Positions 835-34,811 of a stretch of 64,000 bases of DNA are shown here, piece after piece. A program made the translations under genes and the position numbers. The DNA is taken from the NCBI RefSeq assembly GCF_039655875.1, contig NZ_JBBYXK010000002.1, forward strand, positions 620,001 to 684,000, in the 5' to 3' direction. This DNA comes from Emcibacter sp. SYSU 3D8. GTDB lineage: Bacteria; Pseudomonadota; Alphaproteobacteria; SMXS01. Position 1 is the first letter of the stretch. Every line of letters starts with the position of its first letter. A model generated the notes under the pieces. It had not been told where the DNA came from. It was given only the letters and a program-made list of their open reading frames with translations, and ran no database searches.

Positions 835-2169
835 TTAGGCAGTCCTTAGCCCCAACCAGATACTGACCGGCCGCACCCGTCGCAGCACCAGCCATTCGAA
901 GAGCGCGATCGCGATCAACGACGCCCCCAGCACCGGCAGGAACACCGCCAGCGCCAGGATCAGCACGGCAAGGCCAACGCCGATGCGGCCGTCCGGCGCA
1001 GGCGGCGCACCCAGCCGGCCGTCGGGACGCCGCTGCCACCACATGACGTAGCCGGTGACGCTGAGTCCGATCAGCGACAGCGCGGTCAGCACGCCCAGCG
1101 CCTGGTTGAGCGGACCGAACAGCTGGCCCTCATGGGCGGCGATGCCGTAGCCGACGATGCGGTCCACCAGATGACTGTCGCCGAAGCCTTCGCGCCGCAC
1201 CACCGCGCCGGTGGCCGGATCGAGCACCAGCATGACCCGCTGCGGCCGGTTCTGGGTATCCGAGCGCGCCACCCAATCGGGCGATTTCGGCCAGCGGTCG
1301 GAGGGCGGCTGGATCAGCACCGGCGGCGGGAGGCGCAGCGGCCGGACCGCCGCGACCATGGCATCGAACGAGTCCGGCACGCCCGCAGGGTGCGCCCCAT
1401 GGCCACCAGGAGCGTGATCGTGATGGACGTGGGCCGCCATGCCGGCCTTCCAGTCCTGCTTGCCGCCGGTCATGCCTGTGGCCTGCTTGATGTCCTTGAA
1501 CGCGCCGCCCCACACATTGGTCCAGGGCAGGCCCGAAAGCAGCAGGCACAGCGCGAAGGCCGACACCCAGATGCCGATCACCGCGTGAAGGTCGCGCCAG
1601 AACTGCCGCCCACCCTGCTTCAGGCGCGGATAGAGCACGCCGGCCAGGCCGGCGGCCTTGCGCGGCCACCAAAGGTAAAGCCCGGTCACGATCATGACGA
1701 TGGCCCAGCTGGCCGCCAATTCCACCAGGATCGCGCCCGAATCGCCGATCAGCAACTCGCCGTGGATGGTCTTGACCACCTGCATCAGCCGCTCGTCCTC
1801 GGGCACCATGCCGAGCACCGCCGCCGATCGCGGGTGAACGAACACCCGGACATCGCCGTCCGGCCCCGCCACGGTCACCCGCGCGGCATCGGCCGCGTCG
1901 GCGCGTACCTCGTAGGACCGCAGCGACGATCCCGGTACCGCCGCCAACGCCGCGCCGACCTGCGCGGCGGCGCTGGCGGAAGCCCCGGTTCCGCCGATGC
2001 CGTCATAGCTCCGCTCCAGCCACGCCTCGACCTGCGGCTTGAACAGATAGGTCGAGCCGGTGAGCGCCAAAACGATCACGAAGGGCACGCAGAACAGCCC
2101 GGCATAGAAGTGCCAGCGCCAGATCGCGCGGTAGGCCGCACCAGCGTTTCCTGTCGTCCTGCCGCTCAT
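835..2169 (-). CDS. PepSY-associated membrane protein (PiuB-like)
   Basis: A 444-residue inner-membrane protein of the PepSY_TM family, often found beside siderophore or copper receptors and thought to handle metal reduction or transfer in the periplasm. Hydrophobic segments appear near residues 18-45, 155-175, 205-230, 350-375 and 395-435, with a large periplasmic PepSY-like part between the first two. A His-rich loop (HVHHDHAPGGHGAH, about residues 247-260) could bind metal. It is the last gene of a minus-strand cluster with a TonB receptor and a PCu(A)C chaperone 53 bp upstream, which points to copper. The exact reaction is not known for the family. Confidence 0.82.
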   Translation of the reverse strand: MSGRTTGNAGAAYRAIWRWHFYAGLFCVPFVIVLALTGSTYLFKPQVEAWLERSYDGIGGTGASASAAAQVGAALAAVPGSSLRSYEVRADAADAARVTVAGPDGDVRVFVHPRSAAVLGMVPEDERLMQVVKTIHGELLIGDSGAILVELAASWAIVMIVTGLYLWWPRKAAGLAGVLYPRLKQGGRQFWRDLHAVIGIWVSAFALCLLLSGLPWTNVWGGAFKDIKQATGMTGGKQDWKAGMAAHVHHDHAPGGHGAHPAGVPDSFDAMVAAVRPLRLPPPVLIQPPSDRWPKSPDWVARSDTQNRPQRVMLVLDPATGAVVRREGFGDSHLVDRIVGYGIAAHEGQLFGPLNQALGVLTALSLIGLSVTGYVMWWQRRPDGRLGAPPAPDGRIGVGLAVLILALAVFLPVLGASLIAIALFEWLVLRRVRPVSIWLGLRTA

Positions 2170-2222
2170 GTCCGCCTCACCTTCGCCGCTTCATCCCGGA
2201 CACGCCCATGCGCATGGGACGG

Positions 2223-2714
2223 TCAGTGGCCCATATGCTGATGGTGTCCGGCGCTGTGCGGCGCCGCCGCGCCCACCGGGGCCACGTCGAATCGCACATC
2301 CACCGCGCCCGCTTTCTCGAAGCGCAGCACGCCGGGGAAGGAGTCGCCTTCCCTGAGGGGCTGCTTGAGGCTCATGAACATGATGTGGAACGAGCGCGGC
2401 TTCAGGGTAAGCGTGCCGTTGGCGGGCACCGCCAGACCTTCCGGCCGGTGCTGCATGGACATGGTGCCATTGCTTTCGACCACTTCGTGGAGTTCGACCT
2501 TGCCTGCGATCTCCGGCGCCTCGACGGCCAGGAGGCGGTCCGCCGCGCCGGTATTGGCGATGGTGAGATAGCCGGCGCCGACTTTCGAGCCGCCGGGCGT
2601 GGCCCGCGACCAGGGGTCGGTGATCGTGAGCGGGCCAGCCTTGTATTCTGCGGCAAAAGCGTGGCCCGACATGATGCTGACCAGCAGCATGAGTGCGGTG
2701 GCGGTACGAAACAT
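2223..2714 (-). CDS. PCu(A)C family periplasmic copper chaperone
   Basis: A 163-residue exported protein of the PCu(A)C (DUF461) family, which binds Cu(I) and passes it to cytochrome oxidase or to import systems. An N-terminal signal peptide runs to AFA|AEYKAG (about residue 21). The family copper motif is present: His in LHEV, Met ten residues on (TMSM), then a His-Ile-Met pair in FHIMFM. The C terminus is His-rich (HHQHMGH), a common second copper site. The open frame continues upstream inside the TonB receptor gene, but the ATG at 2714 directly precedes a good signal peptide. It lies 38 bp after the receptor gene. Confidence 0.9.
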   Translation of the reverse strand: MFRTATALMLLVSIMSGHAFAAEYKAGPLTITDPWSRATPGGSKVGAGYLTIANTGAADRLLAVEAPEIAGKVELHEVVESNGTMSMQHRPEGLAVPANGTLTLKPRSFHIMFMSLKQPLREGDSFPGVLRFEKAGAVDVRFDVAPVGAAAPHSAGHHQHMGH

Positions 2715-2752
2715 GATGGTCTCCCTTGCGGTTGATGGGCGGCGATCCATGG

Positions 2753-4831
2753 TCAAAGCCTCACTGTCAGGCCGGCGAACAGGGACCTGCCCTCGCCGGG
2801 ATAGAATACCGCCTTTGACACGGCCGGGTCGGCGGCGTTGGTGAGCGCGCCGAACTCGCCCACATAGCGCTTGCCGGTGAGGTTGCGGCCATCGAGGTAG
2901 AGCGTGACATGCTCGCCGATGTCGATGCCGGCGCCAACCGACAGCAGCGCGTAGCCGGGCACCTTCATGGTGTTGGCATAGTCGGCCCAGACGGATGCGG
3001 GACGCCAGTCGATGGCCGGGGCGACGTGCCAGCCCGCCGGATGGCGATAGGTCAACTCGGCCCGGTACTGATGCTTCGGCGCCACGGGCAGGCGGTTGTC
3101 GCCATAGACCGAATCGCCGTCGAAGGTGAAGTCGCTGAAGGTATAGCTCTGCTTGAGCGATACGGCGCCGCCGCCGGGCGCATGACGCAGGATGGTCCAA
3201 TCCAGCGCCGCCTCGACGCCCTGGTGGATGGTCTTGTCGGCGTTGAAGAAGCTGGCGGGAATGCCGGCGGCAAGCTGGAAGCTCAGCAACTCGCCCTTCA
3301 CCGCGGCGCGGTAGAAGGTGACGTCCCAGGCAAGCTCGCCGGTACGGCCCCGCGCGCCGATCTCGCCGGTCCATGCCCGCTGCGCGTCCACCGGCACGAA
3401 GCCGGGATTGGGCGACTGGACCAGGGCACCGTAATGGGGTGGCTCCACCGACCGGGTGATGTTGGCGTAGATCTGGGCGCCGCCGGCGAATTCCCACAGC
3501 AGGCCGATGCGGGGCGAGAACCAGTCGAAATTCTTCGACGCGGCGTTGGCCGGGTTGAAGTAGTCGGTATAGTCGCGCGTGGCCCGGCCATAGGAGCCGC
3601 CGGCGACGAGAGCCAGTTGCTCGATGACGAACAGGCGTGCTTCGGCGAACACGTCAAGGCCGCTGGCCTTCTGCTGCGAATCGCCGAACTGGAAACCGCT
3701 GGCGCCGCCCGTATTGACATAGAGCTGCTGTTTTCTGGTGCCCTGGCGATAGGACAACCCCCAGAACAGATCGGCCCGCAGGCCCGCGAGCTCGCCAGAC
3801 CAGTCGAAGCGGCCGAACGCACCCTGGGTTTCGATATCCTGGTCGATGATGATCGGGATCGGGTGGTGCAGCCTGGTGGCCGTGGCGTAGACGCCGCCCT
3901 CGAAGAGCAACGCGTCATTGAACCGCCAGCGGGTCTGCAACGTGCCGCGCGCGACCGTCTGGTCACGGGCCCAGTCGTTGGCGACAACGCCGGCACCGGC
4001 GTTGCGCGGCACGGTCAGCGCGTCGCCCAGCGTGAGAGCGCCCGGCACCTCCTGCTTGATGTCGGCATAATAGCCGATGGCGCGGATTTCCCGATCCTCG
4101 CCCAGCGAATAGCCCACGTTCAGCGTGCCGCGGCCCTGGCTCTGCTTGCTGTGATCGCGCCAGCCATCGGCGGTGAGGCCGCTGCCTGCGGCATAGATGT
4201 CCCAGTTGCCGAACTGCCGGGCGATCGCGGCGCGGCCCCGGAAACTGCCGAACGATCCGCCCTCGAGGCGCAGCTCGTTTTCCGCCTCGGCGGTCTTGCC
4301 ATTGGGGGTGAACAGGTTGACCGCGCCGCCCAGCTGCGCGCCGCCGAAGCGCAGCGCATTGCCGCCCTTGTACACTTCCACATAGCGGGCGCCGAGGGCG
4401 TCCACCTTCTGGAAATCGGAGAACCCGTCGGCATCGGCGAAGGGGACGCCGTCCTGCGCGATAAGCACGCCGCGCTGGTGATAGGACTGGTCGATCCCCG
4501 ATCCGCGAATCGACAGGCGGGATTCCTCGCCATAGCGTTTCTGGGCGAGCACACCGGGCACGTCGCGAAGGATGTCGGCAAAGCCGGTGGCGAGGCGATT
4601 CTCGTAGCTTTCGGCGGACACGGCGGCCACGGCGCCGGGCGTGCGGGACAGACGCTTGCGCGCCTCGGCGACGACGGGCGGCTCGCCCGGAATGACGTTG
4701 GCGCTGACGATGATGCTGTCGGGCTTGGCGGCATCGGGTGCCGGCCGAAGATCTTCGGCAAAGGCGGTCGAGGAAAGCGGCAGCAGGCAGGCCAGCGCGC
4801 GCACGGAGACGGTGATACGGAACGGATTCAA
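2753..4831 (-). CDS. TonB-dependent outer-membrane receptor, probably for copper
   Basis: A 692-residue TonB-dependent receptor. A signal peptide of about 25 residues ends at AFA|ED. The plug domain spans about residues 60-170 (RLSIRGSG, EVYKGGNALRFG) and the rest is a 22-strand-type barrel ending LFAGLTVRL. Such receptors import metal complexes across the outer membrane using TonB energy. The substrate is not readable from the sequence. Context (DUF2946 protein upstream, PCu(A)C chaperone and PepSY protein downstream) argues for copper rather than ferric siderophore. Length and architecture are normal for the family, and no frameshift is seen. Confidence 0.9.
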   Translation of the reverse strand: MNPFRITVSVRALACLLPLSSTAFAEDLRPAPDAAKPDSIIVSANVIPGEPPVVAEARKRLSRTPGAVAAVSAESYENRLATGFADILRDVPGVLAQKRYGEESRLSIRGSGIDQSYHQRGVLIAQDGVPFADADGFSDFQKVDALGARYVEVYKGGNALRFGGAQLGGAVNLFTPNGKTAEAENELRLEGGSFGSFRGRAAIARQFGNWDIYAAGSGLTADGWRDHSKQSQGRGTLNVGYSLGEDREIRAIGYYADIKQEVPGALTLGDALTVPRNAGAGVVANDWARDQTVARGTLQTRWRFNDALLFEGGVYATATRLHHPIPIIIDQDIETQGAFGRFDWSGELAGLRADLFWGLSYRQGTRKQQLYVNTGGASGFQFGDSQQKASGLDVFAEARLFVIEQLALVAGGSYGRATRDYTDYFNPANAASKNFDWFSPRIGLLWEFAGGAQIYANITRSVEPPHYGALVQSPNPGFVPVDAQRAWTGEIGARGRTGELAWDVTFYRAAVKGELLSFQLAAGIPASFFNADKTIHQGVEAALDWTILRHAPGGGAVSLKQSYTFSDFTFDGDSVYGDNRLPVAPKHQYRAELTYRHPAGWHVAPAIDWRPASVWADYANTMKVPGYALLSVGAGIDIGEHVTLYLDGRNLTGKRYVGEFGALTNAADPAVSKAVFYPGEGRSLFAGLTVRL

Positions 4832-7332: not shown

Positions 7333-7956
7333 ATGAATTTCCGGATTTTAACCGTGCTTGCACCGCTGGCCGTGGCCGCTTGCGGCCCGTCGCCGACCAT
7401 CGGTCTGCTCGAGGACCATGTGGAGCACGACATCCGCAGCAACTTCGTGGTCTGCTCCAACTATCAGTGCACGGCGCGCTACAACGTGGCCCTGACCGAC
7501 GCCGAATGGAGACAGGTGCGGGCGTTCTTCGATCCGCCCGCCACCGATGCCGCCGCCGAGCGCCGGCAGATCGCGCTCGCCATCGGCCAGATCGAACGCA
7601 TCGTCGGCCCCAAGACGGGCACCACCGGCGACAGGCCCGGCGCCGCCATCCTGACCACCCGCACACGCGGCCAGATGGACTGCCTCGACGAATCCCACAA
7701 CACCACGGTCTATCTGCACCTGCTCGAGCGAAACCGGCTGCTGACATGGCACAAGGTGGGTCAGCCGATCATTCGCGGCCATGTCATCGACCGCTGGTTC
7801 CACAACACGGCGACGGTGACCGACACCGCCACGGGCATCCAATGGGTGATCGATTCCTGGTTCGGCGCCAACGGCGAACCAGCCGACGTGGTCACCGCCG
7901 ACGTCTGGCTCGATGGCTGGGAACCGGAGAAGTACAAATCCCGGACGGATCGCTAG
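7333..7956 (+). CDS. Lipoprotein with possible Cys-His-Asp triad, function unknown
   Basis: A 207-residue predicted lipoprotein: the signal peptide ends with the lipobox VAAC (Cys17 of the form starting at 7333). AAGGG lies 7 bases before this ATG, whereas the upstream in-frame ATG at 7327 touches it, so 7333 is preferred. The C-terminal half holds MDCLDES, WFHNTAT and WVIDSWF, an order of Cys, His and Asp that resembles transglutaminase-like peptidases. This is an inference from spacing only; no family was recognised with confidence. Its TAG stop overlaps the TAG of the convergent bd-oxidase small gene within the palindrome CTAG. Confidence 0.75.
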   Translation: MNFRILTVLAPLAVAACGPSPTIGLLEDHVEHDIRSNFVVCSNYQCTARYNVALTDAEWRQVRAFFDPPATDAAAERRQIALAIGQIERIVGPKTGTTGDRPGAAILTTRTRGQMDCLDESHNTTVYLHLLERNRLLTWHKVGQPIIRGHVIDRWFHNTATVTDTATGIQWVIDSWFGANGEPADVVTADVWLDGWEPEKYKSRTDR

Positions 7957-8075
7957 AACGCCCGCCCCAGCATCACGAACAGCCACCGGACGCCATAGGC
8001 CAGCGCGGCGAATGCCAGCAACGAGGCCAGCCACAGGCCAGCAAACCACAGCAGGCGGCGGGGCACTTCGCGCAT
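7953..8075 (-). CDS. DUF2474-type small subunit of bd oxidase
   Basis: A 40-residue protein with one transmembrane helix (about residues 9-35) and a basic N terminus (MREVPRR). Its ATG overlaps the cydB stop as TGATG, which implies translational coupling. Tiny single-helix proteins encoded directly after cydB (CydX, CydZ, DUF2474) stabilise the haems of bd oxidases. The length and the WFAGLW / GVRWLF pattern fit DUF2474, which accompanies cyanide-insensitive-type enzymes. It is easily missed because it is so short. Confidence 0.85.
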   Translation of the reverse strand: MREVPRRLLWFAGLWLASLLAFAALAYGVRWLFVMLGRAF

Positions 8076-9076
8076 CAGTGGTGGTATCCCTCGCCGTGGC
8101 GGACCTTGCCGCGGAATACCCGGTAGACGATGATCGTGTAGGTCAGCACCAGCGGCACGAACAGCAGCGCCCCCACCAGCAGGAATATCTGCGTCTCGGG
8201 CGGCGCGGCGGCCTCCCAGATAGTGAAGGCGCGCGGCACGATATAGGGCCACAGACTGACCGCCAGCCCCAGATAGGACAACAGGAACAGGCTGATCGAC
8301 AGGAAGAAGGGAGCGCCTTCGCGCCGGTTCTTCAGGGCCAGCAGGAGCAGCAGGGCAACGGCGGCCGTCAGGATGGGTATGGGCGCCAGCAACAGCAGGT
8401 TGGGCATGGAGAACCAGCGGGCAGCGATCTCGGGCTGCAGCAGCGGTGTCCAGAGGCTTACCACGATGATCGCGGCCAGCAGGCCGATCGTCAGGCCCTT
8501 GGCGGCCTTGAACATCCAGTCCTGCAGGTCGCCCTCGGTCTTGCCGATCAGCCAGGTGGACCCGAGCAGGCCATAGCCGATCACCAGCGCCACGCCGGTG
8601 AAGATGCTGAAGGGCGTCAGCCAGGAGAGCGCATTGCCGACGAACACGCCGTTCTCGATCGGCAGCCCCTGGACGAAGCTGCCCAGCACCAGGCCCTGGG
8701 CGAAGGCCGCAATGGTGGAGCCGGCGGCAAACGACAGGTTCCACGCCCATTTACTGGTGTTGGATCCGTGCCGGAACTCGAAGGCGATGCCCCGGAAAAC
8801 CAGCGCCACCAGAAACAGGATCAGCGGCACGTAGAGCGCTGGCAGCACCGTGGCATAGGCCAGCGGAAACGCGCCGAACAGGCCGGCGCCGCCCAGCACC
8901 AGCCAGGTTTCATTGCCGTCCCAAACGGGCGCGATGCTGTCCATCATCACATCGCGCCATTCCTCGCGCCTGGTGAAGGGAAACAGGATGCCGACACCCA
9001 GGTCGAAGCCGTCCATGATGATGTACATGGCGACGCCGAAGGCGATGACGGCGGTCCAGATGAGAGTGACGTCCAT
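8075..9076 (-). CDS. cydB: Cytochrome bd ubiquinol oxidase subunit II (CioB/CydB)
   Basis: A 333-residue inner-membrane protein with about eight to nine helices, starting MDVTLIWTAVIAFGVAMY. It matches the CydB family (GVGILFPF, WDGNETWLV motifs). With CydA it forms the quinol oxidase that reduces oxygen to water at high affinity. An AGGGAG site lies 7 bases before the ATG. The gap from cydA is only 11 bp, and the 3' end overlaps the small subunit gene. The partner CydA has a short Q-loop, so the pair is of the cyanide-insensitive (Cio) type. Confidence 0.95.
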   Translation of the reverse strand: MDVTLIWTAVIAFGVAMYIIMDGFDLGVGILFPFTRREEWRDVMMDSIAPVWDGNETWLVLGGAGLFGAFPLAYATVLPALYVPLILFLVALVFRGIAFEFRHGSNTSKWAWNLSFAAGSTIAAFAQGLVLGSFVQGLPIENGVFVGNALSWLTPFSIFTGVALVIGYGLLGSTWLIGKTEGDLQDWMFKAAKGLTIGLLAAIIVVSLWTPLLQPEIAARWFSMPNLLLLAPIPILTAAVALLLLLALKNRREGAPFFLSISLFLLSYLGLAVSLWPYIVPRAFTIWEAAAPPETQIFLLVGALLFVPLVLTYTIIVYRVFRGKVRHGEGYHH

Positions 9077-30470: not shown

Positions 30471-33215
30471 ATGGCGTGGTGGGACAGGCTATTCTCCACG
30501 GAAAATTATATGCCGCACGGGCACTGCTATCTCTGGGAGCCGCATATCCTGTGGCTCCATGTGATTTCGGACGCGGCTATCGGCCTGGCCTACTTTTCCA
30601 TCCCGATCGTGCTGATGCTGTTCTCTCGCCGCCGAAGCGACCTGAAACTGAACGCCATCTTCTATGCCTTCTCGGCCTTCATTCTTGCCTGCGGCGTGAC
30701 GCATTTCTTCTCGGTCTACACCGTCTGGAACCCCGCATATCTGCCGGAGGGCCTGCTCAAAGCCCTGACGGCGGCGATCTCGATGGTCACCGCGGCGGCG
30801 CTGTGGCTGGTCCTGCCCCGGCTGGTGGCGCTGCCAAGCCCGGCCAAACTGGCGGCGGCCAATGCCCAGCTGAACGAGGAAATCCAGACCCGCTGGGAAC
30901 TGGATCGGCAGATCACCGCCCAGAACGCCGAGCTTCGGGCCAGCAACAGATTACTGGCCATGCGCGAATACGCGCTCGACCACGCCGCCGGGGCTATCGC
31001 CATGGCCGACCTGAAGGCCAATATCACCTATTCGAACCAGGCCTTCGCCACCCTTCTTGGCGTCGCCCGGGTGTCCGACCTGGTGGGACGTAATGCCCTG
31101 GAGTTCCTGCCGGAGGGCAGCGCCGCGCTGGCCGACCTGCTGCGCAACGGGCAGTGGATCGGGGAAATCGGTGTCCTTCGGCCCAATGGCGAGACCCGCC
31201 AGGCCGCGGCCGCCGCCGGTCTCGTCGACTTTGGCGACGACAGCCCGAAACTGATCATGGCCTCGTTCCTCGACGTCACCGATACCCGCCAGGCACGCTC
31301 GGCCCTGCACGAAAGCGAGGCGCGCCTCGCCAACGCCCAGCGCATCGCCAAACTTGGCAACTGGGACCTGACCCTGGCCGACGGCAGCACCAGCTGGTCG
31401 GCGGAAATCTATCATATCTTCGGCGTGGCGCCGGGATCGGAGCCGTTCGACATGGACCAGACTCTGGCGCTGATCCATCCGGGAGACCGTGCGGCGGTTC
31501 GCGCCGGCTTCGAAAAATGCCTGGTGCCCGGCAACGGCCCGGCCTCGTGGCAATTCCGCATCGTTCGACCAGACGGCGTCATCCGGCACGCCTCCAGCCA
31601 GGCCGAAGCGGTGTTTGATGCCGCCGGAAAGCCGGTGCGGGTCTCAGGCACGATGCAGGACGTGACCGATCAGGTGGTCGCCGAGAGCGCCACGCGCCGC
31701 ACCGAGGCCTTCCTCGACCAGATCATCGAAAATATCCCCGCCATGCTGTTCGTCAAGGATGCCGAGGACTTGCGGTTCCTGACCATCAACAAGTCAGGCG
31801 AGGAGCTGCTGGGCGTACCGCGCTCCGAACTGATCGGCAGGAACGACGCGGACTTCTTTCCACCGGATCAGGCAAAGGCCTTCACCCAGGCGGACCGGTC
31901 CGTGCTGGCCGGACGGCGGCCCGTCGTGATTCCCGAAGAGGTCATTCAGACGCGGGAAAAAGGCGAGCGCCTGCTGCGTACCATCAAGATTCCGGTCTAT
32001 GACGAGGAGGATCAACCACTCTACCTGCTTGGCTTCTCGGACGACATCACCGAGCGCAAGCAGCTCGAGCTGCAGTTCCGCCAGGCCCAGAAAATGGAAA
32101 CCGTGGGCCACCTGACCGGCGGCGTCGCGCACGATTTCAACAACGTGCTGATGGCCATGCAGATCAATCTGGAAGTGGTGGAGGAACGGGTACAGTCCGA
32201 CGCCGAAGCATCGGAATGTATTCGCATGGCGCTGGGCGCCGTGCAGCGCGGCGCCGACCTGACCGCGCGGCTGCTGGCGTTTTCGCGCCGTCAGCCGCTC
32301 CGGCCCAAAGTGGTCAACGTCAATGTTCTGATCCGCGAAATGATGCGCCTGCTGCACCGGGCCCTGGAGGAGGACCTCGACGTGGAAACGGTGCTTACCG
32401 CCGGCATCTGGTCCATCGAGGTCGACCAGGCGCAGTTGGAAAACGCCCTGATCAACCTGGCGGTCAATGCCCGCGACGCCATGCCCGAGGGCGGCAAGCT
32501 GACCATCGAGGCCGGCAATACCCGGCTGGACGATGACTATGTCCGCGACTTTGACGACGTCCGGCCGGGCCAGTACGTCATGATCGCGGTTTCCGATACC
32601 GGCCAAGGCATGGAGCCAGACGTACTGGAGCGAGCCTTCGATCCGTTCTTCACCACCAAGGATGTCGGCAAGGGCAGCGGCCTTGGCCTCTCCATGGTTT
32701 ATGGCTTCGTCAAGCAGTCCGGCGGCCATGTGAAGCTGTACAGCGAGGTCGGCCATGGCACCACCGCGAAGCTGTATTTCCCGCGGGTGACCGCCTCGGC
32801 CAAGGCAGCGGCCGACGAGACACCGCGCGACATACCGGCAGGGCAGGGCGTGGTGCTGCTGGTCGAAGACGATTCCTCGGTGCGCCGGTCGGTGACGCAC
32901 GCATTGAGGGCGGCCGGGTACACCGTGCATGCGGCCGAGGCCGGCGCCGAGGCGATTGCGCTTGTCGAGGGCGGGCTGCGGCCGATCCTGCTGCTGGCCG
33001 ACGTGGTGCTGCCGCGCGGCATGAGCGGCAGCGACGTATCGGCGGCGGTGAACCGGCTCGTGCCCGGCTGCCGTACATTGTACATGTCCGGCTACACCGA
33101 CAACGCCATCGTCCACCATGGACGGCTCGACCCGGGCGTGGTGCTGATCTCCAAGCCGTTCACCAGGCAGGCATTGGCGGCCAAGGTTCGCGAGGTGCTG
33201 GAGGCGGGCGGCTAG
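30471..33215 (+). CDS. Hybrid histidine kinase with ethylene-receptor-type membrane domain
   Basis: A 914-residue kinase. Three helices (about 25-50, 60-82, 92-115) match the ethylene-binding domain of plant ETR1 and cyanobacterial homologues. Asp34, Tyr41, Pro45, Cys74 and His78 fall at exactly the spacing of ETR1 Asp25, Tyr32, Pro36, Cys65 and His69; Cys and His bind Cu(I). Three PAS domains (about 155-270, 280-400, 405-525) follow, then HisKA (His in [11 protein letters not shown]), HATPase ([24 protein letters not shown]) and a receiver (Asp in LLLADVVLP). It probably senses ethylene or a similar ligand through copper at the membrane. Ligand and output are inferred. Confidence 0.93.
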
Positions 33216-33216
33216 G

Positions 33217-34296
33217 TCAGCCGTTCCAAAGGTCGTAGACGGGATCATCCGGCGCGCGCGCGCCGCGCAGCGGCAGGCTGGCGAAAACGCCCTTGTCCCA
33301 TTGGGCCGTGGTCGGGCGGTTGACGTTCCAGTCCAGCACGAAGGCCCGCCCGGTCAGCTTCCACACGCCGCCGCGCCGCTCGAAACGGTCGAGGAACCGG
33401 CCGCCGATCATCCGGTCGACGGTGCCCGACTTGCGCGGCAGCACCTCGATGCGCGCCACCTGCGTTTCGCCGACCGCCCGGTCGCCGCTGACTTCGTAAT
33501 AGTCGGTGCCGATCAGATGGGTGAGCCGCTCGAAGCGGTCCCGTATGCCGGCCCAATAATCACAAAAGCCCTCGAACCCGCCCGAGAATTCACCGTAGGA
33601 AATCTTGGCGTCCGGATGCCACAGACTGCGCATGAGCGCATCGTCGGCCCGGTCGGCCGCGCGGCAATAGGCCGTGTTGATCTCGTGCAGCGCCTGTTTC
33701 GATACCGCCTTGTCGATGGCGGCGGCCCGGTCGGCGACCGGCGGCGCCGCGGCCGTACCGGCGTCACCGCCCGCCCACGCGTCCAGCATGCGGGTTGCCG
33801 GATCCTTGTCGCCGCGTCCGCCAAGCGGAATGCCTGCATATTGCGGGCTCGCCGTATCCATGGACCAAGGCAGGTTGATGTTCCAGTCGAGCACGAAAGT
33901 GCGGTGCACGATCTTCCAGCCGCTATCCCGCCGCTCGAGCCGGTCCAGATAACGCCCGCCCATCAGCCGTTGCATACGGCCGCCCTCGTCCTCCTCGTCG
34001 CGGTAGCCCAGGCCGTAGCTCTCGGCCACCGCCGTGTCGCCGTCGATCCTGATCCAGATGTTCGACGTGCGGTGGGTGGTCGGCGGCCGCTCGAGGGGCG
34101 CGCCCGTCACCATGGTGCAGAAATCCGCCGCCAGGCCGGCGAAGACACCGTATTCCACGGTCGCGCCCGGGTGATAGCAGGCGCTCATCAGCGCATTGTC
34201 CGACCGGTCGATACCTCGGCCATGGGCGGCAAGCACCTGTTCGATCGCGTGCTTGTCGGCAAGTTCCCGGAGCGCCGCCTCCAGCGCCGCACTCAT
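33217..34296 (-). CDS. Tandem SnoaL-like (NTF2-fold) double-domain protein
   Basis: A 359-residue protein made of two SnoaL-like domains. The first is about residues 10-165 (FVLDWNINLPW near its end), the second about 200-345 (FVLDWNVNRP). Both begin with a helix (QVLAAHGRGIDR / EINTAYCRAADR), continue with HPGA/HPDA and end with GGRYLDRLERR/GGRFLDRFERR. Members include ring cyclases, steroid isomerase and limonene-epoxide hydrolase relatives, as well as many unassigned proteins. Its ATG overlaps the stop of the upstream single-domain gene. No substrate can be inferred. Confidence 0.85.
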   Translation of the reverse strand: MSAALEAALRELADKHAIEQVLAAHGRGIDRSDNALMSACYHPGATVEYGVFAGLAADFCTMVTGAPLERPPTTHRTSNIWIRIDGDTAVAESYGLGYRDEEDEGGRMQRLMGGRYLDRLERRDSGWKIVHRTFVLDWNINLPWSMDTASPQYAGIPLGGRGDKDPATRMLDAWAGGDAGTAAAPPVADRAAAIDKAVSKQALHEINTAYCRAADRADDALMRSLWHPDAKISYGEFSGGFEGFCDYWAGIRDRFERLTHLIGTDYYEVSGDRAVGETQVARIEVLPRKSGTVDRMIGGRFLDRFERRGGVWKLTGRAFVLDWNVNRPTTAQWDKGVFASLPLRGARAPDDPVYDLWNG

Positions 34297-34811
34297 TGGA
34301 ACAGCCCGCTATAGAGCAGGTCGGCAGGCTTGCGGTCGCCGCGCACGCCAAACCGCAGGTGCCATTGGGCGGTGGACGGATTGTTCATGTTCCAGTCCAT
34401 CACCAGCATGAGATGGGCGTATTTCCAGACACCGTCGCGCCGCTCGAACTGGGCGGCATAACGCCCGCCCACGAAACCCTCGACCCCATTGCCATCCGCA
34501 TCGTAGCTGAACGCCGAGAACAGATAATATTCGCCAGCCGCCCGGTCGCCCCTGATATCGAACCATTCGTTGGCGAGGCTGTGCGCCGTCCGCTTCAGCG
34601 AGCCCATGACGTCGAGGACGCGCGGGCAGAATTCGGCGGCGCTGGTCTCCAGGATCCCGAATGACGCCACGGCGTCCGGATGGAACAGGCTGGTCAGCAA
34701 GGGCAGGTCGCACCGGTCGAGCGCACGGCCATACAGCGCGTTGAGGTCGTGCAGCGCCTGGCGCGCAAGCACGGCATCGAGTGGATCGCTCGCACCCTGT
34801 CCCTTGGGCAT
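34293..34811 (-). CDS. SnoaL-like (NTF2-fold) protein
   Basis: A 172-residue single SnoaL-like domain related to each half of the next gene: ALYGRALDRCDLPLL, FHPDA, GGRYAAQFERRDGVW and MDWNMNNPSTAQW align with the same blocks there. The fold forms a cone-shaped cavity used by isomerases, cyclases and hydratases. It overlaps the double-domain gene by ATGA, so the two are probably translated together and may form a mixed oligomer. A short N-terminal stretch (MPKGQGASDPLDAV) precedes the domain. Confidence 0.85.
   Translation of the reverse strand: MPKGQGASDPLDAVLARQALHDLNALYGRALDRCDLPLLTSLFHPDAVASFGILETSAAEFCPRVLDVMGSLKRTAHSLANEWFDIRGDRAAGEYYLFSAFSYDADGNGVEGFVGGRYAAQFERRDGVWKYAHLMLVMDWNMNNPSTAQWHLRFGVRGDRKPADLLYSGLFQ

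Follow-up and report, generated by a model that had tools for sequence, protein, structure and literature searches.

Domain organisation of the locus

The window, by which we mean the whole 64,000-nucleotide stretch of DNA analysed, encodes a hybrid sensor histidine kinase in which an N-terminal ETR1_N domain is followed by three PAS domains, the kinase core and a fused receiver (Table 1). The three PAS stretches are matched by TIGR00229, and the PAS domains, HATPase_c and Response_reg all score above their Pfam cut-offs. HisKA alone, at 25.2 bits, falls slightly below its cut-off of 26.9, with the HDFNN box present. The architecture given in the initial annotation (three PAS domains, kinase and receiver) is confirmed. 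Furthermore, the motifs of a hybrid kinase are complete, including His554, the N, G1 and G2 boxes, the receiver Asp844 and the lysine of SKPFT. A Pfam search of the window protein matched no light-sensing domain. The similarity of the protein to the cell-cycle kinase CckA lies in the PAS-kinase-receiver half, and identity with CckA was rejected, the best NCBIfam CckA score being 368 against a cut-off of 1000. Within the genome, the protein has 44 matches, chiefly through its kinase half.

Table 1. Features of the window discussed in the text, with positions in the window and residue numbers in the receptor protein
Feature	Residues	Position	Strand	Basis or remark
Copper-acquisition-type set: PepSY_TM, PCuAC chaperone, TonB-dependent receptor		835-4831	-	Domain matches
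Divergent PAS-HisKA-HATPase-REC hybrid kinase, 634 aa		28175..30079	-	Between hydrolase and receptor
Hybrid sensor histidine kinase, 914 aa, ATG start		30471..33215	+	ETR1_N - PAS x3 - HisKA - HATPase_c - REC
PHGHC motif	15-19	30513..30527	+	His16, Cys19; predicted periplasmic, before helix 1; also in AzoEtr1
Transmembrane helix 1	24-54	30540..30632	+	Asp34, Tyr41, Ile44, Pro45; AlphaFold2, alignment, hydropathy
ETR1_N (Pfam PF25487)	26-121	30546..30833	+	117.8 bits, cut-off 27
Transmembrane helix 2	61-86	30651..30728	+	Ile71, Cys74, His78; AlphaFold2, alignment
Transmembrane helix 3	90-120	30738..30830	+	Lys97; AlphaFold2, alignment
PAS_3 (second of three PAS)	308-395	31392..31655	+	Pfam
PAS_4 (third of three PAS)	420-531	31728..32063	+	Pfam
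HisKA dimerisation/phosphoacceptor region	547-608	32109..32294	+	His554 in HDFNN box at 32130-32132
HATPase_c	652-772	32424..32786	+	69.8 bits
Receiver domain	795-906	32853..33188	+	46.3 bits; phosphoacceptor Asp844 at 33000-33002

Conservation of the site within the genus

The putative receptor gene is conserved at a single site in three congeneric species (~67% identity). In two congeneric genomes, G004 and G002 (the RI_34 MAG), the site comprises mscS, an alpha/beta hydrolase gene, the receptor, two SnoaL-like genes, ppa, a phosphotransferase-like gene and purD, and the receptor immediately follows the hydrolase. In the window, a second, divergent hybrid kinase lies between these two genes (Table 1). 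Among five congeneric genomes, this kinase is found at the site solely in the window's species, and it was rejected as an ancestral signalling partner because the site is without it in the four relatives. Furthermore, its kinase half is less like that of the receptor than are several other kinases of the genome. The two adjoining SnoaL-like genes of the window (33217-34811, minus strand) belong to a large family in this genome, with 24 matches for one query.

In G005 and G007 the site is empty (L218 10804-10829 and L219 1794-1816), the hydrolase and SnoaL genes being separated by a gap of 22-25 bp that holds neither kinase. Since two species of the genus are without the receptor gene, both at the site and elsewhere, the receptor is dispensable. 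An unrooted tree of the flanking proteins places G005 and G007 together (support 0.84) and apart from the three carriers, which is compatible with either one loss or one gain of the receptor, and the GC content of the gene is similar to that of its neighbours. The receptor of the RI_34 relative is short of about one PAS, indicating that PAS content varies within the genus. Both relatives (L184 ~8870-8890 and L032 ~7955-7970) share an AT-rich element, TATAAAATT(C/T)GAAA, in the short gap before the receptor start, which is possibly a promoter; no such element is visible immediately ahead of the receptor in the window.

The sensor domain retains the ethylene-binding residues of ETR1

Asp34, Tyr41, Pro45, Cys74 and His78 stand where the initial annotation had placed them, with the spacings of ETR1 (7, 4, 29 and 4), and none of the five varies among 23 aligned alphaproteobacterial domains. 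Indeed, the seven ethylene-binding residues of ETR1 (D25, Y32, I35, P36, I62, C65 and H69) all have their counterparts in the window protein (D34, Y41, I44, P45, I71, C74 and H78), the output lysine is also kept as Lys97, and all binding residues are intact in the window copy and in both congeneric copies. The spaced pattern of five residues arose in 2 of 400,000 shufflings of the same 137 residues, and chance is ruled out more strongly by the match to PF25487 (E 2.6e-34, covering model positions 2-97 of 97).

Structure prediction, which had been proposed as a check, points to three transmembrane helices of the ETR1 type in residues 1-137. The AlphaFold2 model, based on 60 sequences, is a three-helix bundle with a mean pLDDT of 89 and a pTM of 0.74, the block that holds most of the PHGxC segment being less certain (66). 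Cys74 and His78 (i, i+4), as well as Asp34 and Tyr41 (i, i+7), would each share a helix face, as judged from their spacing only. Helices 1 and 2 are joined by a positively charged loop (residues 52-59, SRRRSDLK), and the N-terminus is therefore predicted by the positive-inside rule to lie outside. No solved structure was matched by sequence, or convincingly by fold, and neither comparison brought up the membrane domain of an ethylene receptor.

The nearest tested relative is AzoEtr1 of Azospirillum brasilense Sp7, a protein of 525 aa with D35, C75, H79 and K98 (Carlew et al., 2025; PMC11819568). Its residues 1-130, made in Pichia, bind 14C-ethylene saturably, and cells in which the gene is disrupted lose ethylene binding (PMC11819568). 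We located the gene in the Sp7 replicon NZ_CP012915 as an ORF of 525 aa, the next ORF, which overlaps it, encoding a response regulator. The AzoEtr1 sensor and the window protein are 50% identical in a gap-free alignment of 133 residues.

Together, the domain order, the residue conservation, the predicted three-helix fold and the homology to a proven ethylene-binding domain are directly supported here. From sequence, we consider the window protein to be a bacterial ethylene receptor, presumably a dimeric hybrid histidine kinase of the inner membrane that senses ethylene through Cu(I), with a probability of roughly 0.8. An ethylene-receptor-type sensor kinase, as first proposed, is the best reading of the full ETR1_N match, the seven residues and the gap-free identity to AzoEtr1; against it stands the fact that the link to function by identity runs through a single Azospirillum protein, whose output is simpler in having one PAS and lacking a receiver. 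By analogy with AzoEtr1 and ETR1, we infer that the window protein would bind both ethylene and copper, and the bacterium probably senses ethylene.

An N-terminal motif outside the Pfam model

Upstream of helix 1, the window protein carries a PHGxC motif that is common to the bacterial members and lies outside the Pfam model. Its Cys was known before: a single N-terminal Cys had been noted in cyanobacterial receptors, with a dimer disulfide suggested (PMC6682694). Discussion of the motif His was not found in the literature open to the search. Among 93 ETR1_N domains, nearly all of them picked with the Pfam model, whose start is after the motif, His16 is kept in 79 and Cys19 in 83, compared with 79 for Asp34, 83 for Tyr41, 74 for Pro45, 86 for Cys74 and 88 for His78. 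Loci from the pattern scan described below were left out of this count, the only pattern of that scan containing PHGxC. The conservation of the motif therefore equals that of the known binding residues.

Copies without Cys74 or His78 are mostly also without His16 or Cys19 (76/8/1/8; Fisher p 1e-6). A specific tie to the copper ligands was rejected, since the loss is equally associated with that of Tyr41, Pro45, Ile71 and Lys97 and the rows are not phylogenetically independent; the equal strength of these associations indicates that the co-loss reflects decay of the whole domain. PHGxC, predicted to lie on the periplasmic side, might form a second copper site that either loads Cu(I) to Cys74 and His78 or is part of the binding site, an idea that we regard as rather unlikely. 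If true, it would set these proteins apart from plant receptors, in which the N-terminal cysteines provide the disulfide of the dimer. The motif poses a simple mutagenesis question on copper loading.

Distribution of ETR1_N and the nature of the signal

In counts that take in the starting genome, already known to be ETR1_N-positive, PF25487 is matched by 27 of the 385 alphaproteobacterial genomes sampled and by 23 of 299 across the phylum; the figures are 15 of 25 for the class to which a Nostoc belongs and 5 of 80 for the phylum to which an Acidobacteriaceae MAG belongs. Named genomes were also scanned with a sequence pattern, which gave at least 579 confirmed relatives, the best 80 of which span many phyla. 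The pattern was derived from an 8-row alignment, the 23-row alignment being too diverse to yield patterns, and a single-protein scan of genome contigs with the sensor domain gave no match. According to a review, many proteobacteria carry the ETR1 domain, with varied output domains (PMC7700396). The surprise implied in the initial annotation thus fails, as ETR1_N is widespread beyond cyanobacteria and a non-photosynthetic bacterial receptor has already been published. With the domain both widespread and reviewed as proteobacterial, the receptor is not of a new kind; it extends a known bacterial family by one member.

Among the matches listed, the hosts include Bdellovibrionales, Thiomargarita, Acidobacteriota and groundwater MAGs, for which plant ethylene is no obvious signal. 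This distribution, together with PCuAC and TonB-type copper genes in the same window, would be consistent with a copper site that was kept for another natural signal, be it copper itself or CO, acetylene, isoprene or a different small molecule that is unsaturated or binds Cu(I). We consider such a signal improbable, since all seven ethylene residues are kept, including the non-ligands Tyr41, Ile44, Pro45 and Ile71, and ethylene is bound by the closest relative that has been tested (PMC11819568). The copper genes reported at 1-5 kb are real; the link to the receptor drawn from them was rejected, as they lie 26 kb from it with many unrelated genes between, and neither position nor other evidence ties the two.

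Decayed ETR1_N domains are known in other bacteria (L024, L025, L027, L028 and L030). One of these, L030 (1426-1833, plus strand), is a close paralogue of L007 that keeps the Asp, Tyr, Pro and second-helix His, while Gly replaces the second-helix Cys and Arg the N-terminal His; its sequence makes it likely to be a natural non-binding ethylene receptor. Decay of this kind, the three PAS domains between membrane domain and kinase, and the change in PAS content in the RI_34 relative would all suit a transmembrane domain inherited from an ethylene receptor as a membrane anchor, with the PAS domains reading the physiological signal. This is very improbable for the window protein, whose domain, like those of both congeneric copies, is undecayed, unlike the five loci above.

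Proposed mechanism of signalling

As an ethylene receptor, the protein would hold Cu(I) among its three transmembrane helices by Cys74 and His78, with Asp34 tuning the Cu(I) site and bridging to Lys97. Ethylene dissolved in the membrane would bind Cu(I) and change the helix bundle, and this change would reach the kinase core by way of the three PAS domains. We also infer the dimeric state, the sign of the response, the output route and the physiological role. Ethylene most likely lowers autophosphorylation of His554, following the inverse-agonist model put forward for ETR1, SynEtr1 and AzoEtr1, and phosphate would move from His554 to Asp844 of the fused receiver, then on to some Hpt or response regulator. 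No cognate response regulator adjoins the receptor. Hpt matches are confined to two large ORFs, and a ChpT-type output was rejected for want of a convincing ChpT, the one marginal match lying inside a kinase ORF.

The window protein contributes a well-conserved probable ethylene receptor, in hybrid-kinase form, from an alphaproteobacterial order represented by few genomes (10 here), and the case shows how common ETR1_N is beyond plants and cyanobacteria. Furthermore, a genus with both carriers and exact empty sites offers natural pairs for studying the role of bacterial ethylene sensing.

Comparison with known receptors

AzoEtr1 and the window protein, both alphaproteobacterial, have in common the seven binding residues, the PHGxC segment, the Lys, and a downstream PAS and histidine kinase. 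They differ in output: AzoEtr1 (525 aa) has a single PAS and lacks a receiver, its response regulator being encoded separately by a gene that overlaps its 3' end, whereas the window protein (914 aa) has three PAS domains, a fused receiver and no adjoining response regulator. SynEtr1 (slr1212) of Synechocystis sp. PCC 6803 likewise combines an ETR1-type three-helix sensor and the seven residues with a histidine kinase output; unlike the window protein, it doubles as a light receptor, and its signal goes to slr1213. Arabidopsis ETR1 shares with the window protein the spacing of Asp25, Tyr32, Pro36, Cys65 and His69, the Cys and His that serve as Cu(I) ligands, and the organisation of a hybrid kinase with a receiver, whereas plant receptors have GAF in place of PAS, two N-terminal cysteines (Cys4 and Cys6) and CTR1 as their main output.
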